Shown here: positions 84 through 10,376 of the stretch, one piece after another
How positions within the stretch are numbered: the stretch's first letter is position 1
Layout of the letters: each line of letters opens with the position of its first letter
Assembly: GCA_015657395.1 (NCBI GenBank)
Contig: JADLKI010000017.1
Location: forward strand, 27,107-37,482
Length of the DNA stretch: 10,376 nt
DNA from: Spirochaetales bacterium
Lineage (GTDB): Bacteria; Spirochaetota; Spirochaetia; Treponematales; Rectinemataceae
Direction: 5' to 3'
The notes under the pieces: model-generated
Seen by the model: the letters and a program-made list of their open reading frames with translations, nothing else
Databases searched by the model: none
What the model was told of the DNA's origin: nothing
Program-made: the position numbers and the translations under genes

Positions 84-244
84 CATCATCGGAATGAAAA
101 AGATACTCCCGACGTTCGCTTCCCAAAAGTTGCAGCGGCAGAAGAATATCTATGTCTCGGCGGGCAAGAGGGACCTGCAGCTGTACTTTCCTCCGTGGAC
201 CTCATTACTTTCTGCGATATTACTCTGGAGATATAGGCGCGATC
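84..244 (+). pseudogene. Truncated, frameshifted duplicate of the 3' end of ybaK
   Basis: From about position 84 this stretch aligns without gaps to positions 3494-3603 of the intact ybaK in this window. The translation reads IGMKKILPTFASQKL... against IGMKKKFPTFASEKL..., then YVSAGKRDLQLY against YVSAGRRGLQLY. Eighteen bases are identical (tctatgtctcggcgggca). One base has been lost near 193-195. Restoring it gives VDLITFCDI, matching ADLISFCEI of the intact gene. Similarity runs to about 243, where the intact gene also ends. The first ~100 codons are absent, including the essential Lys47 region and most of the GYVRGGCSPIG motif, so no working deacylase can be made. It is a decayed partial gene copy, and the 39-bp repeats begin right after it. 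Confidence 0.85.
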
Positions 245-361
245 AATAATGTCTATTATAATAGGCAAAAGTAAAAAAACATATATTTTATCCATAAAAA
301 TGGATAAAATATTGAAAATAAAATTATTGTCCATTATAATAGACAATATGGAGGTCGATCT
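245..361 (+). repeat. Three imperfect 39-bp tandem repeats, each centred on a palindrome
   Basis: Units are 245-283, 284-322 and 323-361. Each holds a dyad of the form tTrTCyAT-nnnn-ATrGayAA. Dyad 1 is gtctatta/taataggc (251-266), with one mismatched pair. Dyad 2 is a perfect 13-bp inverted repeat at 283-295 and 300-312 around an AAAA loop. Dyad 3 is gtccatta/taatagac (329-344), with one mismatched pair. Dyad centres are at 258.5, 297.5 and 336.5, exactly 39 bp apart. Units 1 and 3 contain TATAAT at the dyad centre (257-262 and 335-340). Because 39 is a multiple of three, both strands read as 13-residue repeats (such as LSIIIDN or LSIKMDK), but I regard these as by-products and not proteins. 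The array ends at the start of the DUF4143 ATPase, so it most likely serves as a regulatory (operator) array for that gene. A mobile repeat or an RNA hairpin array is possible. Confidence 0.85.
312..340 (+). promoter_or_regulatory. Candidate sigma-70 promoter of the DUF4143 ATPase, inside the repeats
   Basis: TTGAAA at 312-317 and a perfect TATAAT at 335-340 are separated by 17 bp. The -10 box occupies the centre of dyad 3 and the -35 box touches the right end of dyad 2, so a protein bound to either dyad would block RNA polymerase. The predicted start near 347 would leave a very short leader, with the ribosome site GGAGG at 350-354 and ATG at 364. AT-rich repeats can mimic promoters by chance. 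Confidence 0.5.
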
Positions 362-363
362 GA

Positions 364-1599
364 ATGGATATTATTTCACGACCACGCTATCTGAACAGAA
401 TCCGTCCGTATATTGGAACAAAAATCATCAAGGCTGTCGTCGGGCAGCGACGAGTTGGAAAGAGTTATGTCCTGTTGCAGATTGCTGAGCTTCTGCGCGT
501 GGAGCATCCTGACTGGTTGATTCTTCATATCGATTTGGAACGGCTTGAATGGCGGCATTTGCAGACTGGCGATGATCTTGTGCGTGAGGTCTCAATGGCA
601 GTCTCATCCAAGATCGAGACAGGTGCGTATATAGCGCAGGCCAAGATAGCGCTTCTCCTTGATGAGGTACAAGAGCTTAAAGGATACGAGACCGCGGTGA
701 GAGGGTTCGCGGCGGACGAACATTTTGATGTCTATATATCAGGTTCAAACGCCGATTTGCTCTCTGGTGACATCGCGACGCTTTTCGCGGGAAGAGCGGT
801 TCGGATTGAGGTACATTCGCTCACGTATGACGAATTCCTGGTCTTCAACAAACTTAAGGACAATGACGCTTCGCTAGGACGCTTTCTACGATATGGAGGC
901 CTGCCATTTATAGCCAACCTCCCCAACGATGACTTGGTATTGAGTGAATATCTGGCGGCGGTGCTCGATTCTGTCGTACTCAAGGATGTCGTACAGAGGC
1001 ATGGCATACGAAGTCCGGCCCTTCTCGAACGAATACTTGAATTCACTGCCGACAATGTGGGCAGCCCGACTTCTGCCCGCAACATATCCAATTATCTCAA
1101 AAATATTCGAGTAGATGCCTCTCCGCAGTCAGTGCTCGATTATCTCGGTTACCTCATGAGGGCCTTTGCGTTAATCCGATGTCCCACCATGGACATCACA
1201 GGTAAGAAAATACTTGAGGGCGTCTCAAAATACTATTTTGAGGATTTGGGTTTAAGATCGGTGGTAAGGGGCAATAGGGATGCAGATATTGGCAAGATTG
1301 TCGAGAATGCGGTCTTCGGGAGACTGGCTGCGGATGGATGGACAGTATCAAGTGGCCGCGTCGGAGATCGTGAGATCGACTTCGTCGTCGAACGCGGAGA
1401 AGATTGCCGGTTCATTCAGGCTGCATACCTTATTCCAGACAGCTCTACGCGCGACAGAGAATTTGGAGGCCTTGTATCTTTGCGTGGTGGCTGGCCACGG
1501 TATGTTATCTCGATGGACCCGCTCGTCCAGGATTGGCAGGGGGTACATCATCTGAAGTTGAGAGATTTCCTGAGGGACGGCTTTGAGAGTGTACGATAG
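364..1599 (+). CDS. AAA-type ATPase with C-terminal DUF4143 domain
   Basis: The product has 411 residues, the usual length for this family. The N-terminal ATPase domain shows Walker A GQRRVGKS (27-34), Walker B ALLLDEVQE (96-104) and the sensor-like stretch ISGSNADLLS (125-134). YGGLP (177-181) is typical of the family. The C-terminal DUF4143 part has the restriction-endonuclease-like fold signature Glu314, EID (337-339) and Gln352-Ala-Ala-Tyr, in which the final catalytic lysine of true PD-(D/E)XK enzymes is not evident. Cellular function of the family is largely unknown; these genes are often accessory and multicopy. The start is set by GGAGG at 350-354, nine bases before the ATG, and an in-frame TGA directly precedes that ATG. 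It is a single gene under the three 39-bp repeats and is flanked by a ybaK remnant on the left and a short orphan tail on the right, so it may have been acquired by recombination. Confidence 0.93.
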   Translation: MDIISRPRYLNRIRPYIGTKIIKAVVGQRRVGKSYVLLQIAELLRVEHPDWLILHIDLERLEWRHLQTGDDLVREVSMAVSSKIETGAYIAQAKIALLLDEVQELKGYETAVRGFAADEHFDVYISGSNADLLSGDIATLFAGRAVRIEVHSLTYDEFLVFNKLKDNDASLGRFLRYGGLPFIANLPNDDLVLSEYLAAVLDSVVLKDVVQRHGIRSPALLERILEFTADNVGSPTSARNISNYLKNIRVDASPQSVLDYLGYLMRAFALIRCPTMDITGKKILEGVSKYYFEDLGLRSVVRGNRDADIGKIVENAVFGRLAADGWTVSSGRVGDREIDFVVERGEDCRFIQAAYLIPDSSTRDREFGGLVSLRGGWPRYVISMDPLVQDWQGVHHLKLRDFLRDGFESVR

Positions 1600-3185: not shown

Positions 3186-3659
3186 ATGAAAAAGACCAAT
3201 GCCATGAGAATGCTCGATGAGGCGAAGATTTCCTATGAGGTCGCAGAATACGATGTCGATCCCGAGGACCTTTCCGGCCTCCATGTGGCTCAGACCGCCT
3301 CTCTGCCTCCCGGGCAGGTATTCAAGACCATCGTGCTCAAGGGAGATAGAAGCGGCTATCTTGTGGTCTGCCTGCCGGTCGGCGATGAGATCGATCTCAA
3401 AAAGGTCGCCGCGCTTTCCGGGAACAAGTCGGTCGAGCTGATTCACATCTCCGACCTGGAGAAGATCACCGGGTATGTGCGGGGCGGCTGCTCGCCCATC
3501 GGGATGAAGAAGAAGTTTCCGACCTTCGCCTCCGAAAAACTGAAACAGCAGGAAAAAGTCTATGTCTCGGCGGGCAGGAGAGGCTTGCAGCTGTATCTTT
3601 CTTCCGCGGATCTCATCTCGTTCTGCGAAATTTTCCTGGGCGATATCGGTCGCGAGTAG
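3186..3659 (+). CDS. ybaK: YbaK/EbsC-type Cys-tRNA(Pro)/Cys-tRNA deacylase
   Basis: The product has 157 residues, the family norm. YbaK proteins hydrolyse Cys-tRNA(Pro) made in error by prolyl-tRNA synthetase, and act in the cytoplasm. Visible family features are QVFKTIVLKGD with the essential lysine (Lys47), LPVGDEIDLKKVA (63-75) and GYVRGGCSPIGMKK (96-109). No active-site break is seen. A purine-rich GAAGG lies upstream of the ATG. The gene converges with the minus-strand isomerase gene 54 bp away, with no obvious strong terminator between them. A damaged copy of its last third lies at 84-244, so this region has been duplicated in this genome. Confidence 0.95.
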   Translation: MKKTNAMRMLDEAKISYEVAEYDVDPEDLSGLHVAQTASLPPGQVFKTIVLKGDRSGYLVVCLPVGDEIDLKKVAALSGNKSVELIHISDLEKITGYVRGGCSPIGMKKKFPTFASEKLKQQEKVYVSAGRRGLQLYLSSADLISFCEIFLGDIGRE

Positions 3660-3713: not shown

Positions 3714-4694
3714 CTATCGTTTCGACGGGAAGATTTTGGACTTGATCCACGCGGTCGACTTCACCGCGTCACCTCTGGCGAGGAGGGCGCGGATCTCCTC
3801 CATGCTCTTCGCATCGAGCATCGCCTCTATTCCCTGGAGGAATTCTACGCTGTTGCGCAACGCTCCTTGGGCGTCTTCGCGGTATGGATACTGGTCCATC
3901 GAATACCATCCATCGTAGCCGAGTTCTTTGAGCCAGAAGAGGAGTTCGATGAACTCCACCAGGTGGACCGAGCCGACGATCATGTCGTCGTCCCAGAAGC
4001 GATAGTTGTCGTTGAAGTGCATGTGGAACAGTTTCCTGCCGGCCTGATTCAGAAGGACGGCAGCCTCCGCCATGTTTTCGCCCGCGACGAGGGAATGCCC
4101 AGTATCGATAGTGACGCCGACGTTGGGCAGCCCGACTTCCTGGGCAAGGATGAGGGTGTCGGCGGCGCGTGCGAGGAAGGAGTGGGTCCTCGGCTCTTTG
4201 GGCTTGTACTCAAGGGAGAACCGGATGTCCGGATAGGCCTTAGCTGCCGCGCGAATCGCGTCGACGATCCATTGTCGCGCTTGGAGGTAGTTGGACTGGA
4301 GAGGATAATCGTAGCCATCCTGGCCGGGCCAGATGTTGACGAGTGGGCATCTGAACTTTCGTGCGAGTTCCGCGGCGATCATGGTCTCGTCGAGGGCCTG
4401 TGCGCGTATCGCCGGATCCAGCGATACAAAGGCGCCGCGACCCCACCTTTTCTGGGAGAAATGGTCCGGCAGGATAGAGGCACACACAAGTCCGTACTTA
4501 TTCAGCAATTCGCCTATTTCATCGGCGTTCTGGGGTGTAATATCCCAGGTGCCGACAAGCTCGACTCCCGTAACGCCAAAGATTTCCGAGGCCTGTCTGA
4601 TCATTGTCTCTTTGGATGGCTGGTCTTTATATCCGGACGATAAAAACCTGTCGCATGTGTTGCCGAGGTTTCCGAGAATAATCGAATACTTCAT
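3714..4694 (-). CDS. Xylose-isomerase-like TIM-barrel sugar isomerase/epimerase
   Basis: The product has 326 residues of the AP endonuclease 2 / xylose isomerase-like barrel superfamily. Candidate metal ligands are Glu162 (SLEYK), Asp197 with His200 (VTIDTGHS), His226 (FHMHFNDN) and Asp267 (YSMDQYPYRED). WPGQDGYDYP (122-131) and NDNYRFWDDD (228-237) are characteristic stretches. No signal peptide is seen, so it is cytoplasmic. It probably interconverts an aldose and ketose or epimerises a ketose. The subfamily cannot be named, though it somewhat resembles L-rhamnose isomerase and D-tagatose 3-epimerase relatives. Its ATG overlaps the stop of the LacI-type gene (ATGA at 4691-4694), so the two are translationally coupled. 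The partner importer is divergently transcribed, which suggests the imported sugar is the substrate. Confidence 0.88.
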   Translation of the reverse strand: MKYSIILGNLGNTCDRFLSSGYKDQPSKETMIRQASEIFGVTGVELVGTWDITPQNADEIGELLNKYGLVCASILPDHFSQKRWGRGAFVSLDPAIRAQALDETMIAAELARKFRCPLVNIWPGQDGYDYPLQSNYLQARQWIVDAIRAAAKAYPDIRFSLEYKPKEPRTHSFLARAADTLILAQEVGLPNVGVTIDTGHSLVAGENMAEAAVLLNQAGRKLFHMHFNDNYRFWDDDMIVGSVHLVEFIELLFWLKELGYDGWYSMDQYPYREDAQGALRNSVEFLQGIEAMLDAKSMEEIRALLARGDAVKSTAWIKSKIFPSKR

Positions 4695-5731
4695 GCGGTA
4701 TCTCCTTCTGCCTCCGAAGGGCTGTCGATTCGTTTTACACTGCTTCTCTCTATGAGCCTTCCGCCGATAAGTACTTTCACGGCTGGCATATCGGCCTCTC
4801 CCTGTATGCGCGACACGAGCAGCTGAATCGCCATCCGGCCAATCTGGGCTTTGGATACTTGTATTGTTGTCAACGGCGGATCAGAGATGGCTGAAAGTGG
4901 AAGATCGTCAAAGCCGCCGATGGAGATATCCTCGGGAACCCTGATTCCCGATTTGGAAAAGGCCCTGAGGCAACCGCTTGCGATGATGTCGTTGCTGCAT
5001 ATGAGGGCTGTAGGCAATCGGGGATGCTGGGCAAGGATGGACTTCATGTCGCTGTAGGCTCCATGGAAGGTCTGGTCTACTGAGAAAATAAAGGATTTAT
5101 CCGCTTCAAGGCCGAGTTTCTGGAGCCCGGCGAAGAAGCCCATTTCGCGCAGACGTATGTTCCTCGTCTCGATTTTTCCTTTGACAAAACCAATGCTGCG
5201 GTGCCCCATGCTGTAGAGATGCGACAGGAGAAGGAACACCGAATCTTCATTGTTCATATCGACGAAATCGAAGTTCAGGAACTCGTGATACGTATCGATA
5301 AATACGAGTGGTTTTCTTATGACCTGAAATGATTCTATGTCTTCACGGCTGAGTTCGGTTCCCAGGACGATGAACCCGTCGGTCGCTTTTCCCAGAGCAG
5401 TCTCCAGGACTTGTTCCATCGGTGCGAGCTTGAACATGACTATCTCAAGAGAGTAGCCGGCCAACTTCGAGCCCTGACTGAGGCCTTCTATATAATCAGC
5501 TATGAATACGTCGTGGTCACGATTTATTGTGTGCCCGTGCCGGGCGATATGAAGCAGGCACAGCGAGCCCGCTTTCGCGCTGCGGGGACCGGTATATCCC
5601 AGGTCCTTGGCTGTTTGGAGTATCTTCATTCGCAGCTCGTCGCCCGCTCCGGGTTTGTTGTTCAGCACCAGCGATACCGTAGTGGAAGAAACGCCGACCG
5701 CATCGGCTATATCTTTTATTCGAATGCCCAT
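4691..5731 (-). CDS. LacI-family transcriptional regulator
   Basis: The product has 346 residues. The N-terminal LacI helix-turn-helix and hinge helix read IRIKDIADAVGVSSTTVSLVLNN-type (residues 3-25), followed by a periplasmic-binding-protein-like ligand domain (about 60-330) with FIVLGTE, GHRSIGFVKG, ICSNDIIASG and PLTTIQVSK. The frame is open further upstream (to 5770), but the ATG at 5731 is preferred because it starts right before the HTH, as in the family, and has GGAG five to six bases upstream. It acts as a DNA-binding dimer or tetramer whose affinity changes on binding a sugar or sugar phosphate. It is coupled to the isomerase gene and divergent from the ABC operon, so it probably regulates both. 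Candidate operator dyads lie at 5779-5796 and 6001-6019. Confidence 0.95.
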   Translation of the reverse strand: MGIRIKDIADAVGVSSTTVSLVLNNKPGAGDELRMKILQTAKDLGYTGPRSAKAGSLCLLHIARHGHTINRDHDVFIADYIEGLSQGSKLAGYSLEIVMFKLAPMEQVLETALGKATDGFIVLGTELSREDIESFQVIRKPLVFIDTYHEFLNFDFVDMNNEDSVFLLLSHLYSMGHRSIGFVKGKIETRNIRLREMGFFAGLQKLGLEADKSFIFSVDQTFHGAYSDMKSILAQHPRLPTALICSNDIIASGCLRAFSKSGIRVPEDISIGGFDDLPLSAISDPPLTTIQVSKAQIGRMAIQLLVSRIQGEADMPAVKVLIGGRLIERSSVKRIDSPSEAEGDTA

Positions 5732-5741
5732 TGTGACTCCA

Positions 5742-5770
5742 ATCTTATGGCATAATCCCCGGCTTGTCAA
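5742..5770 (-). promoter_or_regulatory. Candidate promoter of the LacI-isomerase operon
   Basis: Read on the minus strand there is a perfect TTGACA (5770-5765), a 17-bp spacer and TAAGAT (5747-5742), a four-of-six -10 match. Its weakness is geometry. The start would fall around 5735, at or past the GGAG site (5737-5740), giving a nearly leaderless mRNA. A start further upstream, with TAAAAT at 5782-5787 as -10, is an alternative but lacks a good -35. Confidence 0.35.
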
Positions 5771-5778
5771 GAAAAACT

Positions 5779-5796
5779 AATATTTTAGTAAATATT
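5779..5796. promoter_or_regulatory. Candidate operator dyad on the LacI side
   Basis: Perfect inverted repeat aatattt-tagt-aaatatt, 7-bp arms and 4-bp spacer, eight bases upstream of the candidate minus-strand -35. It shares the pattern ATATT..AGTAA.TAT with the reverse complement of the dyad at 6001-6019. It lacks the central CG seen in many LacI-family operators, so assignment to this regulator is inference. Confidence 0.4.
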
Positions 5797-5995
5797 TATA
5801 ACTTTATTTGCTTGATATATGTGCGTGTATAAGGCTAGCCTGTATGGTACAAAAAATGAAATATCTATATATTATAAAAAATACATGGCATTTTTGATTG
5901 GCCTTTGGGTTTCCCAATTGACCCGAATTGTCCACTGGAATGGCTGCAAACACGCCTTTCTGGTGCTGCTTTCGCTGAATTAATGCAAAAATAAG

Positions 5996-6019
5996 TACTT
6001 TGATATTACTTTAATATCA
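5996..6019. promoter_or_regulatory. Candidate operator: 11-bp tandem repeat forming a 19-bp dyad
   Basis: TACTTTGATAT (5996-6006) is followed directly by TACTTTAATAT (6007-6017), a repeat of about one helical turn. The same bases form the inverted repeat TGATATTA-CTT-TAATATCA at 6001-6019. It ends 12 bases before the -35 box of the ABC operon, a position suited to an activator or to a distal operator in a loop. Confidence 0.45.
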
Positions 6020-6031
6020 CTAAAATTTTCC

Positions 6032-6059
6032 TTGACAGCTCAGTCGGCAGTGCTATAAT
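6032..6059 (+). promoter_or_regulatory. Strong sigma-70 promoter of the sugar ABC operon
   Basis: Perfect TTGACA (6032-6037), 16-bp spacer and perfect TATAAT (6054-6059) with the extended -10 TGC directly in front (6051-6053). The expected start is near 6066, leaving a leader of about 27 bases that carries AGGAGG (6082-6087), five bases before the ATG at 6093. A promoter this close to consensus is likely to be held down by a repressor. Confidence 0.85.
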
Positions 6060-6092
6060 TAAGAACGCTATCCTAAATTCAAGGAGGACAGG

Positions 6093-7127
6093 ATGAAACG
6101 AAGGCTTTTCTTGATGATTTCGCTCGTGATGGTTTTCGTGCTGGCGGTTCCCCTATTTGCACAGACATATAATCCGCTGAACTTCAAATCGAAAAAACCG
6201 ATGAACCAGTGGAAAATCGCATTGGTCCCGAAGGATGCGACGAATGCCTGGTTTGTCCGCATGGAAGTGGGTGTCAAGCAGTTCGCAAAGGACACTGGCA
6301 TCAATGCTTTCCAGAAAGGGCCGCCCAAGACCGACGCAGCCATGCAGGCCCAGGTCATCGAGGACCTCATTGCGCAAGGAGTCGACGCCATCTGCGTCGT
6401 GCCGGTCGATCCTGCGGCCCTCGAGCCAGTGCTCGGCATGGCCCTGTCCAAGGGCATCGTGGTCATCGACCATGAAGGCGCCTCCCAGGAGAACTGCCTC
6501 TACGACATCGAGGCCTTCAGCAACCAGGGTCTCGGTCAGACGATCATGGTGGAGCTCGCCAGGATGATGGGAGAAAAGGGCGTGTACACCACGATGGTCG
6601 GCAACGTCACCAACGCTTCGCACAACGAGTGGGCCGACGCCGGCGTCGCCTATGCGAAGGCGCATTATCCCAACATGACACTCCTCGCCGCCGAGCCGCG
6701 CGTCGAGATCATGGACAACCTCGACACCGCGTACGAGCGTGCCAAGGAACTGTTCAAGAAATACCCCAACCTCAAGGGCATCTTCGGCACCTCCTCGCTC
6801 TCTTCGCCGGGCGCCGCACGCGCCATCGAAGAACTCGGCCTCAAGGGCAAGGCGTTCGTGACCTCGGTCGGCCTGCCCAACGAGAACAAGGCCTATCTCA
6901 AAAACGGCACTCTCCAGTCTGTCCTCCTCTGGGATCCCAGGGACGCCGGCTATGCCCAGTTGGCGATGGCGGTGAAGATTCTTAAGGGAGAGAAAATCGA
7001 AAACGGCTGCAACCTCACTGCTCCGGGCTGGACCTCGATGCAGTTTGCGCCGGGCTCTACGAAAATTCTGCAAGGCAAAGGCTGGATAACGATTACGAAA
7101 GATAATGTTGATTCCTTTGGCTTCTGA
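6093..7127 (+). CDS. Periplasmic sugar-binding protein of a ribose/AI-2-type ABC importer
   Basis: The product has 344 residues. The signal peptide MKRRLFLMISLVMVFVLAVP ends LFA at residue 23, and no lipobox cysteine follows, so the protein is free in the periplasm. The mature part is a type 1 periplasmic binding fold: KIALVPKDATNAWF opening strand, the repeat-like AQVIEDLIAQGVDAICVVPVDPAALEPVL, GIVVIDHEG at the hinge and a second lobe with LKGIFGTSSLSSPGAARAI. The pattern is closest to LsrB/RhaS-like binding proteins for pentoses, 6-deoxyhexoses or AI-2, but the ligand cannot be told. It is the first gene of the operon, with a strong ribosome site. Codons over roughly 6230-6900 end in C far more often than in neighbouring genes, as expected for high expression. 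A strong stem-loop follows the stop. Confidence 0.93.
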   Translation: MKRRLFLMISLVMVFVLAVPLFAQTYNPLNFKSKKPMNQWKIALVPKDATNAWFVRMEVGVKQFAKDTGINAFQKGPPKTDAAMQAQVIEDLIAQGVDAICVVPVDPAALEPVLGMALSKGIVVIDHEGASQENCLYDIEAFSNQGLGQTIMVELARMMGEKGVYTTMVGNVTNASHNEWADAGVAYAKAHYPNMTLLAAEPRVEIMDNLDTAYERAKELFKKYPNLKGIFGTSSLSSPGAARAIEELGLKGKAFVTSVGLPNENKAYLKNGTLQSVLLWDPRDAGYAQLAMAVKILKGEKIENGCNLTAPGWTSMQFAPGSTKILQGKGWITITKDNVDSFGF

Positions 7128-7153
7128 TGTATCATTCGAGTATCTGAATAAAT

Positions 7154-7180
7154 GTGGGGGAGCTCTTTCTGCTCCCCCAC
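7154..7180 (+). terminator. Strong intercistronic stem-loop after the binding-protein gene
   Basis: A perfect 10-bp stem, gtgggggagc / gctcccccac, with a seven-base loop. What follows (gttcttactgg) is not a proper U-tract, so it is probably a partial terminator or an mRNA-stabilising hairpin. Either would give more binding protein than membrane components, a common arrangement in sugar ABC operons. It lies between the binding-protein stop and the ATPase ribosome site. Confidence 0.75.
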
Positions 7181-7205
7181 GTTCTTACTGGCCGGGGAGG
7201 TAGCA

Positions 7206-8699
7206 ATGACAGCCCCAATATTGAAAGTCGAAGGAATCACCAAATCGTTTGGCGGCGTGCAGGCGCTCAGGGGAGTGAGCCTCGAGATCGGTTCGGGCGA
7301 AATTCACTGCCTTGCCGGAGAGAATGGTTCCGGAAAATCAACTCTTATCAAGGTGATTTCGGGCGTCTACGAGCCCGATGCGGGAAGGATCGAGATAAAC
7401 GGACAGCATTTTTCCCACTTGAATCCCAAGGAAGCCATCGGCCTCGGAATTCAGGTCATCTATCAGGATTTCTCCGTGTTTCCCAATCTGACGGTTATGG
7501 AAAATCTCGCCCTGAACATGGAGCTCATGGATAACCGCAAGCTGATGAATTATCGCAGGGCGAGGGCCATCGCCTTCAATGCCATTTCCCAGATAGGCTT
7601 CGATGTCGACCTGGATGAACGGGTAGAAAATCTCACGGTGGCCGACAGACAGCTCATTGCGATCTGCCGTGCGCTCTTGCAGGAAGCCAAGCTCATCATA
7701 ATGGACGAGCCAACTTCCGCACTCACAAAAAAGGAAGTCAAGGCCCTGTTCGCGGTGATCAAGAGGCTCCAGGCCCGGGGCCTGTCAATTCTGTTCGTAT
7801 CGCACAAGCTCGACGAGGTCTTCGAAATTTCAGAGCGCTATACGATCCTGAGGAGCGGCGAGAATGTGGCGAGCGGAAACACGGAGGAACTTGACCGGAA
7901 GACTTTTGCGTTCCACATGACCGGGCGGGAATTCGCCGATGAGTACTATAAGCCTGCAGGCGTGAAAGGGAAGCCTGTTTTGTCCGTCAGGGGATTAACG
8001 CTCCGCGGCGCCTATTCCGATATCTCTTTCGATCTCGCCCCGGGTGAGATTCTCGGAATAACGGGCCTCCTCGGGTCGGGACGGACAGAATTGGCCGAAA
8101 CGCTGTTTGGAATTCTGCAGCCCGATTCCGGCGGGATCGAGATCGACGGCAGGGCGGTCAAGATCAGGAGCGTGAAATCTGCGATCCGCAGAGGGATTGG
8201 CTATCTTCCCTCGGATCGCCTGACTGAGGGACTCTTCCAGCCGCAGGCGGTGGACCGCAATCTTGTAATCACGACTCTCGACCGATTGAGCAGCCGCCTG
8301 GGTTTTCTCCGGCGCAAGGCGATAGCGGAGACTGCCATGCAGTGGATTGACAGGCTTTCAATCGCGGTCAGAAGTCCGACGCTTCCCGTCCGGACACTGT
8401 CGGGCGGCAATCAGCAAAAGGTCGTGCTGGCGAGGTGGCTTGCCAACGACCTCTCCATTCTCATACTCAATGGGCCCACGGTGGGGGTGGACATCGGTTC
8501 AAAGTATGATATTCACGCACTGATGCGCAAGCTTGCGGCGGACGGCCTGGCGATCATCATCATATCCGACGATCTGCCGGAGGTTCTGGCGTGTGCGAGC
8601 CGCATACTCGTCATGCGCGATGGAGTATTTGTCCGGGAACTCGATCCATCTGCGACAACCGAGTCGAAACTCAGCGAATTGTCGACAGGAATCGCTTAG
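7206..8699 (+). CDS. Sugar ABC transporter ATPase, two fused ABC domains (RbsA/MglA type)
   Basis: The product has 497 residues, normal for this family. The ATG at 7206 is chosen because GGGGAGG (7194-7200) precedes it and the protein starts as family members do; the frame is open 18 codons further up, but that stretch would encode the hairpin. Domain 1 is complete: Walker A GENGSGKST (38-46), Gln87, signature LTVADRQ (143-149), Walker B LIIMDEPT (163-170) and switch His200. Domain 2 is degenerate: the Walker A lysine is Arg293 (GLLGSGRT), signature LSGGNQQ (398-404) is intact, Walker B reads LNGPT (421-425) in place of LDEPT, and the switch His position is Asp455. Hydrolysis should occur only at the composite site formed with domain 1 residues. 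It energises sugar uptake with the two downstream permeases. Confidence 0.95.
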   Translation: MTAPILKVEGITKSFGGVQALRGVSLEIGSGEIHCLAGENGSGKSTLIKVISGVYEPDAGRIEINGQHFSHLNPKEAIGLGIQVIYQDFSVFPNLTVMENLALNMELMDNRKLMNYRRARAIAFNAISQIGFDVDLDERVENLTVADRQLIAICRALLQEAKLIIMDEPTSALTKKEVKALFAVIKRLQARGLSILFVSHKLDEVFEISERYTILRSGENVASGNTEELDRKTFAFHMTGREFADEYYKPAGVKGKPVLSVRGLTLRGAYSDISFDLAPGEILGITGLLGSGRTELAETLFGILQPDSGGIEIDGRAVKIRSVKSAIRRGIGYLPSDRLTEGLFQPQAVDRNLVITTLDRLSSRLGFLRRKAIAETAMQWIDRLSIAVRSPTLPVRTLSGGNQQKVVLARWLANDLSILILNGPTVGVDIGSKYDIHALMRKLAADGLAIIIISDDLPEVLACASRILVMRDGVFVRELDPSATTESKLSELSTGIA

Positions 8700-8712
8700 G
8701 GAGGTAGAGAAA

Positions 8713-9729
8713 GTGATTTCCATGGGACGGATGACAAAACGATCCGAGCCATACATTCTGGCGGCGATTGTCGTGCTCAGCCTGCTGATACAGGCGAGAT
8801 CGGGACAGTTCTTTTCGGGCAACAACCTGGTGGACCTGGCCCGGTCTCTGATTGTGCCGGCGCTGTTTTCCATAGGCTGCATGATGGTCATTGTTTCAGG
8901 GGGGATCGATGTCTCTTTCACCGCCATTGCTTCGCTCGCCATGTATGTTACGGACAGGCTTCTACTTGCCTCACAGTATTCGGGGAATGTCATTCTGGCC
9001 TATGCGATATCGGCAGGCCTGGGACTGCTGATGGGCGCTCTGAATGGCTTTCTGATAGGTTTTCTGAGGCTGCCGACGTTCGTAGTGACATTGGGCACAT
9101 CGAGCCTTTTCACCGGCCTCATGTTCGGGGCTTTTTCAGCGAGCGCCTCCGATGTTCCTCCTTCCATAGCAAGACATGGCAAAGAGATACTGTTCACGGC
9201 GACGAATCCGAAGCTGGGTCTCACTTCCAATATGCCGTCTCAGATATTGATCCTCATCGCCGTTTTACTCTTTGCATTCTTCTTGCTTCGCTACACAATG
9301 CTTGGCCGGGGCATCTATGCAGTCGGCGGGGACGAGACGGCGGCAGAGCGCGCAGGATTCAACGTTCGCGGCATCAAAATGTTTCTTTACTGTTTTGTCG
9401 GCGTCCTTGCGGGGATCACTGGTATTGCCCGTATCTCCATGATGTCGTATGCAGATCCTTCGACGATGCTGGGCATGGAGATGACGGTCATCGCCGCAGT
9501 CGTCTTGGGAGGGACACGGGTTACCGGCGGTGTAGGAACGCTGGTGGGCACCATCAGCGGCGTTGCTTTAATGACCATCCTTTCGAACAGTTTGATCCTC
9601 ATAGGAATACCGACATATTGGAGTCGAGTGTTTACTGGTGCCGTCATCATCGTAGGTACTGGCGTTACCGCACATCAGATACGTTCAACGAGGCGGCGCC
9701 ATACTCAGCCACAAAAGGCCACGGTCTAG
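8713..9729 (+). CDS. Sugar ABC transporter permease 1 (RbsC-type, BPD_transp_2)
   Basis: The product has 338 residues with about eight to ten hydrophobic segments in the inner membrane. Family marks are SGGIDVSFTAIASLA (62 onwards), the glycine-rich GFLRLPTFVVTLGTSSLFTG, and AVGGDETAAERAGFNVRG followed by VVLGGTRVTGGVGT near the C-terminus, the loop that contacts the ATPase. The start is taken as GTG 8713, eight bases after GGAGG (8700-8704); ATG codons at 8722 and 8731 are in frame but too far from that site. Only 13 bases separate it from the ATPase stop, so it is clearly in the same operon. It pairs with the next permease to form a heterodimeric channel. Confidence 0.93.
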   Translation: MISMGRMTKRSEPYILAAIVVLSLLIQARSGQFFSGNNLVDLARSLIVPALFSIGCMMVIVSGGIDVSFTAIASLAMYVTDRLLLASQYSGNVILAYAISAGLGLLMGALNGFLIGFLRLPTFVVTLGTSSLFTGLMFGAFSASASDVPPSIARHGKEILFTATNPKLGLTSNMPSQILILIAVLLFAFFLLRYTMLGRGIYAVGGDETAAERAGFNVRGIKMFLYCFVGVLAGITGIARISMMSYADPSTMLGMEMTVIAAVVLGGTRVTGGVGTLVGTISGVALMTILSNSLILIGIPTYWSRVFTGAVIIVGTGVTAHQIRSTRRRHTQPQKATV

Positions 9730-9738
9730 GAGACGTCC

Positions 9739-10376
9739 ATGACAGCTGACAAACCTGCAGATTCTGTTCGCAGAGCCCGTGGAGCGCATGACCCGAATCT
9801 CCTCCGGCTATTGGTGATGCTTGTTTTTGTTTTTCTGTTGATGACGGTGCTCCGTCCCCACCAGTTTGCAACGATGACCAATTTCAACTCGATGATGAGG
9901 CAGTTCCCCGAGTATGGCATAATGGCAATCGGCATAAGCCTGACAATGATCACGGGCGGGATCGACCTCGGCGTGGTGGGCACTGCAAATCTCTCCGCCA
10001 TCATCGCGGCTAAGTTCCTTATCGGGTCTGTGCCGCAGGGTTCAACGCCTGCTCAGGTCGTGCCGTACCTTATCATTGCGGTTTTGCTCTCTCTTTCGGT
10101 TGGGCTGGCCTGCGGAACCATCGCAGGGACCCTCATTTCGCATTTTAACATTCCGGCGATACTCGCCACCCTGGGAACCCAGCAGCTCTTCACGGGGATT
10201 GCAATCGGGATCACGAGCGGCCGGCCGCAGAGCCGTCTGCCATTGCTGTATTCGCGAATTGGTAATACAGAGTTCTTCAGGTTTGTGCCCCTTTCCTTTG
10301 TGATATTCTCGGCGGTGGCCGTGGGTATCGGACTCATGCTGTCGCGCACACGTTTCGGTACCTGTATGTACATGAT
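9739..10376 (+). CDS. Sugar ABC transporter permease 2 (RbsC-type), cut by window end
   Basis: An open frame of 212 codons from ATG 9739 runs off the right edge. AGGAG (9728-9732) overlaps the stop of permease 1 and lies six bases before the ATG. The protein starts with a charged ~20-residue tail, then a membrane segment (LLRLLVMLVFVFLLMTVL), then MITGGIDLGVVGTANLSAI (70 onwards), the counterpart of GGIDVS in permease 1. HFNIPAILATLGTQQLFTGI matches the conserved permease stretch. The C-terminal third, including the expected ATPase-contact loop, lies outside the window. Two different RbsC-type permeases in series mean the channel is a heterodimer, as in rhamnose- and AI-2-type importers. Confidence 0.92.
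   Translation, partial: MTADKPADSVRRARGAHDPNLLRLLVMLVFVFLLMTVLRPHQFATMTNFNSMMRQFPEYGIMAIGISLTMITGGIDLGVVGTANLSAIIAAKFLIGSVPQGSTPAQVVPYLIIAVLLSLSVGLACGTIAGTLISHFNIPAILATLGTQQLFTGIAIGITSGRPQSRLPLLYSRIGNTEFFRFVPLSFVIFSAVAVGIGLMLSRTRFGTCMYM

Follow-up and report, generated by a model that had tools for sequence, protein, structure and literature searches.

Phased operator-like dyads private to each gene suggest that PDC-S01-type STAND-like ATPases repress themselves through their winged helix

Which protein reads the regularly spaced palindromes that precede an ATPase gene in a Spirochaetales bacterium, and what would their occupancy do to that gene? The window analysed here, a stretch of 10,376 nucleotides, carries on its forward strand at 364..1599 a gene for an AAA_14-DUF4143 ATPase of 411 amino acids that is PDC-S01-like according to Pfam and PADLOC profiles. 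On the 5′ side of this gene lie three 20-bp dyads of the form TTRTCYAT-N4-ATRGAYAA, with start-to-start distances of 39 and 39 bp. The original prediction had described this arrangement, and it is present: a scan of the window with the consensus at up to three mismatches returned three matches, compared with 0.28 expected, and none of 200 shuffles gave three.

The distal, operator-like palindrome, dyad 1 (ATGTCTATTATAATAGGCAA, 249..268), is a putative operator with two mismatches to the consensus. Dyad 2 (TTATCCATAAAAATGGATAA, 288..307), inside an inverted repeat at 283-312 with 13-bp arms, and the proximal dyad 3 (TTGTCCATTATAATAGACAA, 327..346), which overlies a −10 hexamer, have none; no strand was assigned to any of them. 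Symmetric pairs number 8, 8 and 9 of 10 for dyads 1, 2 and 3. In pairwise comparisons the dyads agree at 12, 17 and 15 of 20 positions; for the 19-bp linkers the agreement is 9, 4 and 3 of 19. Because the linkers do not repeat and Tandem Repeats Finder detected no tandem array at the dyads, the earlier description as three tandem 39-bp units was the wrong wording and was rejected; only the dyads repeat. The nearest named relative, at 94% identity, is UBA5556, a Spirochaetaceae metagenome genome, and its aligned upstream region has the same dyad order with a 1-nt difference in linker length between dyads 1 and 2 and a partly decayed dyad 3. A relative at 71% identity (G004) has dyads 2 and 3 only, dyad 1 not being conserved.

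The surroundings of the gene contain pieces of its neighbours. Window positions 87-192, before the ATPase gene, are a 106-base tail of a YbaK-like gene that is 76% identical to the intact downstream copy at 3497-3602, and at 1678-1797, after the ATPase gene, a short frame resembles pieces of a gene upstream of the window (L038:6457-7167). These duplicated flanking remnants hint at an insertion or duplication around the gene. Positions 3714-10376 are an ordinary sugar uptake locus with a LacI-type regulator, a xylose-isomerase-like protein and a sugar ABC importer (binding protein, ATPase and permeases).

The dyads coincide with a predicted promoter. TATAAT had been placed at the centre of the last dyad and is indeed found there as a putative −10-like hexamer (335..340, forward strand); it is also central in dyad 1 (257-262). 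Together with a putative −35-like hexamer, TTGAAA, identified by consensus scan on the same strand at 312..317 in the linker that separates dyad 2 from dyad 3, it forms TTGAAA-17-TATAAT, with a consensus promoter score of 11/12. Across region 1-2400, promoter-like sites showed no excess (three found, 3.1 expected). Within the order to which the window belongs, a −35/−10 match of at least 9/12 was found at 16 of 33 proximal dyads, compared with 5.5 expected from shuffled linkers, and at 10 of 33 distal dyads, compared with 3.9 expected, so that the signal is not specific to the proximal position. In Bacteroidales and Prevotellaceae, one of 20 proximal dyads had such a match, compared with 4.5 expected; the promoter consensus of these groups is perhaps different, a possible reason for the low match there. 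Dyads thus clearly coincide with predicted promoters in spirochaetes, and such a coincidence is only putative in other groups. In 51 of 79 genes, at most 30 bp separate the centre of the proximal dyad from the start codon. Because that centre falls directly on the chosen start in 7 of the 79, some of the start codons, which were set by a homology rule, are probably wrong.

For the family-wide analysis, we scored all pairs of 20-bp windows 24-80 bp apart (57 spacings) within 250 bases around the start by adding half of the mutual identity to the symmetry of both windows, and compared the scores with those of dinucleotide shuffles. The homologue set consisted of 145 genes kept from 168 at a pairwise identity below 80% and covered spirochaetes, Bacteroidales, plasmids, the phylum of L070 and others; left out around it were 13 matches set aside earlier, nine without an N-terminus and four with short upstream DNA. 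The gene sets were drawn from part of the places among the homologue matches listed. The best dyad pair was spaced 39-41 bp in 74 of the 145 genes, compared with 7.6 expected if all 57 spacings were equal. Sixty-three genes scored above all shuffles (0/50), 54 of them at 39-41 bp, and z exceeded 4 in 53 genes at 40 bp, 16 at 39 bp and five at 41 bp, as well as in ten at the double step of 80 bp and in 0 to 6 at any other spacing. From the window's own order, 57 non-redundant genes were kept of 73, and 28 of these beat every shuffle, 26 at 39-42 bp. A replication set fetched afterwards (35 of 39 genes kept; one of 40 had short upstream DNA) gave 27 of 35 at 39-41 bp, 19 with 0/100 shuffles. As a control, 134 upstream regions of neighbouring genes from the same loci yielded five that beat all shuffles (0/60) and a single one at 39-42 bp, which is L059 DNA read from a divergent frame starting at 1373, 125 bases off the ATPase start. 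The family-wide phasing at 39-41 bp bears out the view that so regular a spacing reflects a function. Among the 79 of 145 genes with z >3.5 at 38-42 bp, 70 carry two dyads, seven carry three and two carry four, and alignment on the proximal dyad showed, in both dyads, a preference for TTTC in the outer half-site and for TATAAT at the centre.

The phasing has taxonomic boundaries. Pairs at 39-41 bp that no shuffle reached were found in 24 of 55 genes of the own order, 8 of 13 from other spirochaetes and 14 of 26 from Bacteroidales, in 4 of 16 plasmid genes, in 4 of 27 from the phylum of L070 and in none of eight from Prevotellaceae. Another spacing was best in 71 of the 145 homologues, including 21 of the 27 from the phylum of L070 and 7 of the 16 on plasmids; no Prevotellaceae gene (0/8) had its best pair at 39-41 bp. 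A shuffle-supported pair at 39-42 bp was absent from all 26 Patescibacteria DUF4143 genes and from all 12 DUF4143 paralogues of the own genome other than the window gene, and a universal 40-bp rule for DUF4143 genes was rejected.

Other arrangements were seen in other DUF4143 genes. Among 50 genes of other lineages, spacings peaked at 33 bp (12 genes with z >2.5, compared with 0.9 expected), with six at 32 bp compared with 0.8 expected; such 32-33 bp pairs lie upstream of L004, L002, L114, L126, L131, L135, L148 and others. Because 11 of these genes are common to the 145-gene set and L012 and L015 represent one divergent intergenic region, the 33-bp peak is a lead only, and the dyad step may be lineage-specific across DUF4143 genes. 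Strong dyad pairs at 51-52, 71 and 74 bp were noted at L123 and L125 (Prevotellaceae), L167 (a Methanosphaera plasmid) and L174 (a Listeria seeligeri plasmid). The own genome has 15 DUF4143 matches, 14 over the cut-off, and eight of the 15 lie in both orientations inside 16 kb of a single contig (G000:C19:67651-83477). Several paralogues (L033, L034, L036, L031 and L032) have one long palindrome with 13-18 bp arms near the start codon, and these palindromes differ in sequence from each other.

The sequence of the dyads, in contrast to their arrangement, is not shared. It had been proposed that the same repeats might mark other DUF4143 genes; this was correct for the arrangement and found no support for the sequence, which differs from gene to gene (TTGTCCAT, TTTCGA, GTTTCATG, TTTACGG and others among homologues). 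In the own genome, the consensus with up to one mismatch occurs at two sites only, dyads 2 and 3, and with up to three mismatches at 91 places, compared with 104 for a reversed control pattern; a regulon elsewhere in the genome was rejected for want of any surplus of sites. In 30 genomes of the taxonomic family, a pattern from the close clade with up to one mismatch matched 14 places and the control pattern none. Seven of the 14, including all three perfect sites, precede close homologues in five genomes, one of them a broken gene in G017, and the other seven are unpaired singletons elsewhere. The concern that the repeat might lie at random places with no link to ATPase genes was not borne out.

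The ATPase itself exceeded the Pfam cut-offs for PF13173 (79.2 bits; cut-off 27) and PF13635 (49.5 bits; cut-off 28.1) and matched the PADLOC PDC-S01 profile PDLC04787 with 386.6 bits over residues 2-405, as did all 61 proteins of alignment A1 to that profile. No NCBIfam family matched, a sequence search of solved structures gave no useful match, and with search patterns from close relatives only, no homologue was found on viral contigs. The Walker A motif GQRRVGKS (residues 27-34; 442..465, forward strand) is fully or almost fully conserved in alignment A1, and G32, K33 and the Walker B residues D100-E101 are retained in 144 of 144 ungapped homologues. It is followed by a predicted winged helix-turn-helix at residues 218-277 (or ~216-275; 1015..1194, forward strand), modelled as helices 218-230, 238-247 and 254-266 and a strand at 270-277; helix 254-266 (1123..1161, forward strand) would be the recognition helix according to the structure model. 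Residues 306-398 (1279..1557, forward strand) have a PD-(D/E)XK-like fold on the basis of the DUF4143 match, the model and column counts. The acidic residues E314 and D339 are retained in homologues, and Q352-A353-A354 stands where a PD-(D/E)XK nuclease has its catalytic E-x-K. Of 143 ungapped homologues, 142 have Q at position 352; at position 354, A, S, C or T is found in 142 and K in the remaining one; among 39 DUF4143 genes outside the homologue set, the catalytic K is present in 33 and the E in 35. This loss of the nuclease lysine argues against reading the proteins as active nucleases. The nearest fold matches of the model were SSO1545 and PAB2304, followed by NLRs and CED-4, with 2qby and 1w5t also matched. 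An ATPase fold with Walker A and B motifs and a winged helix after it is the architecture of STAND NTPases, and the model points to a STAND-like ATPase whose Walker motifs are intact and whose nuclease fold lacks the catalytic lysine.

Co-variation between dyad and protein was analysed in genes with a clear pair only (z >4), 67 of the 145 and 27 of the 35, 94 in all. With overall protein similarity removed, dyad similarity in the 67 genes followed similarity within residues 231-270 (partial r 0.243; 0/2000 permutations), and the best non-overlapping 40-residue block reached a partial r of 0.10. With all 94 genes and with permutation confined to groups of related proteins (4, 8 or 15 clusters), none of 1000 permutations reached the observed value; for seven control blocks under within-cluster permutation, the best result was 19/200. 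The 27 replication genes by themselves gave the highest value at block 206-245 (0.34), with block 331 reaching 0.24, so that the peak is broader in this small set. The residues of the peak fold as the winged helix in a confident model (pLDDT 91.2). Because variation of dyads read by a separate protein should follow no particular part of the ATPase, and it follows the winged helix, the pattern points to self-regulation: the most likely regulator would be the ATPase itself, with the promoter of each copy covered by a set of operators private to that copy. The original idea of a shared consensus read by a dedicated separate regulator fits neither the dyads, which differ per gene, nor their tracking of the winged helix. 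An acidic residue at 255 accompanied a CpG in the half-site in 20 of 29 genes, compared with 1 of 38, as the best of 919 tests; this link failed a tree-based test (median p 0.5), the tree permitting few independent comparisons, each of which pointed the same way, and a single-residue specificity code at 255 was dropped as not independent of the tree.

We therefore consider it probable, from comparisons of sequences, that this PDC-S01 STAND-type ATPase represses its own gene by placing its winged helix on phased operators. This reading starts from what is directly observed, namely the anatomy of the array, the 39-41 bp phasing across the family, the co-variation with the winged helix and the loss of the nuclease lysine. 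We infer from these that the winged helix (approximately residues 218-277) would bind the ~20-bp dyads in dimeric or higher oligomeric form, and that two to four dyads ~40 bp apart would be occupied together, possibly cooperatively. Because the proximal dyad lies on the −10 element and the linker contains the −35 element, occupancy would be expected to block RNA polymerase, giving negative autoregulation; repression as the direction is likewise proposed, and the array may instead serve activation. Repression would probably be lifted by a change in the nucleotide or oligomeric state of the ATPase, a putative release signal, and the circuit may serve a role in defence. Operator sequence and winged helix would diverge jointly, a drift that would give each copy a private circuit with no cross-regulation among paralogues. 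A step of 40 bp does not correspond to an integral number of turns of the helix, which counts against the phased-operator reading.

It is unlikely, although conceivable, that the array is a functional platform on which the DNA-bound winged helix keeps the STAND ATPase resting or nucleates its assembly, the loss of the sites during infection freeing the protein. The STAND-like fold, with its nearest matches to SSO1545 and PAB2304 and then to NLRs and CED-4, speaks for this, as do membership in PDC-S01 and the presence of up to four dyads (2 of 79 genes), more than simple repression needs. The winged helix of STAND proteins, SSO1545/PAB2304, NLRs and CED-4 alike, is part of a resting-state lock, as in animal and plant STAND proteins. 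A speculative form of the idea, to which we give little weight, makes the promoter array both operator and sentinel, the resting-state lock of an innate-immunity ATPase: infection would strip, cut, modify or unwind the array DNA, whereupon the ATPase would be released and re-expressed, private arrays would let the paralogues within a genome act independently, and the assembly of each lineage would be mirrored in its step, ~40 bp here and 32-33 bp for other DUF4143 lineages. Against a platform stands the fact that autoregulation alone accounts for the overlap of dyad and promoter.

It is improbable that a transcription factor encoded elsewhere recognises the dyads and thereby governs the ATPase gene. 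Promoters with several operators mostly have dedicated regulators, and stand-alone repressors of defence genes exist; WYL-domain regulators (PMC9122601) and RptR (PMC12255303) reportedly act as such separate-protein repressors. However, the dyad differs by gene, tracks the winged helix of the ATPase and was not found at other genes of the genome, and a separate factor would need replacing along with every ATPase lineage. It is very unlikely that the dyads mark the ends of a mobile unit carrying the ATPase gene or serve as its recombination sites: the family is patchy (75 of 194 relatives), plasmid copies are frequent (229 records) and the window copy is flanked by duplicated remnants of neighbouring genes, but the dyads lie on the 5′ side only, with matches in the 400-bp 3′ flank of 3 of 78 genes and inside 1 of 78, and sites at the ends of a unit would have no need of a 40-bp register relative to a promoter. 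The reading as terminal repeats, which should occur at both ends of a mobile unit, was accordingly rejected. Hairpins of a leader RNA, acting as attenuator or terminator, are scarcely credible despite the perfect 13-bp arms around dyad 2, because the −10 box inside the proximal dyad would put the dyads at or upstream of the transcript start, and the short distance to the start codon and the conservation of spacing rather than sequence speak against them as well.

Autoregulation by the winged helix would give these ATPases a sequence-readable private array, that is, a ready DNA target per gene for binding assays, reporters and domain swaps, and thereby a route to testing what the proteins do. 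In the array, sequence-specific binding of DNA would be tied to the winged helix of a STAND-type protein, and the 94 co-varying pairs of protein and operator are material for learning a recognition code. PDC-S01 is reported to rank fourth in frequency among the defence systems of prokaryotes, and validation is said to be pending for most PDCs (PMC12988326). The PADLOC PDC-S01 candidates belong to the same protein family as the window ATPase by its PDLC04787 match (PMC12988326, PMC13356809), and the available portions of these accounts cover domain content, prevalence and phylogeny and leave operators unmentioned; the word 'promoter' has no occurrence in that of PMC12988326. For a system reported to be so common, we met no description of a mechanism in these parts of the literature, nor did a search of the open-licence literature return a description of an array before DUF4143 or PDC-S01 genes.

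Autoregulation through several operators is known, and it is the phased private array before these ATPase genes of which we found no description. AbiEi is a winged-helix antitoxin that represses its own abiE promoter via paired inverted repeats (PMC3985639; PMC7319586), and it resembles the present case as a winged-helix protein associated with phage defence whose inverted repeats surround the −35 and −10 elements of its own promoter (PMC3985639). AbiEi is a two-domain antitoxin beside a DUF1814 toxin, whereas here a single gene encodes a STAND-like ATPase, the nine window proteins scanned include no DUF1814 and the next gene is NUDIX. Also unlike the AbiEi sites, the dyads are full 20-bp palindromes in steps of ~40 bp and in two to four copies, with an operator sequence that varies between homologues. 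IniR, a mycobacterial signal transduction ATPase likened to SSO1545, is described as a transcription regulator and shares the SSO1545-like ATPase domain and sequence-specific promoter control; it activates another operon and carries a separate C-terminal DNA-binding domain (PMC5760070). The presumptive reader here is, in contrast, a winged helix that immediately follows the ATPase domain, and the target would be the promoter of the gene itself. Orc1/Cdc6 initiators have origin repeats beside their genes, and they share with the window protein an AAA ATPase joined to a winged helix, binding sites adjoining their own gene and the fold matches 2qby and 1w5t. Unlike them, the ATPase gene studied here shows no sign of a replicon, and its dyads overlap a predicted promoter in a chromosomal single-gene setting.
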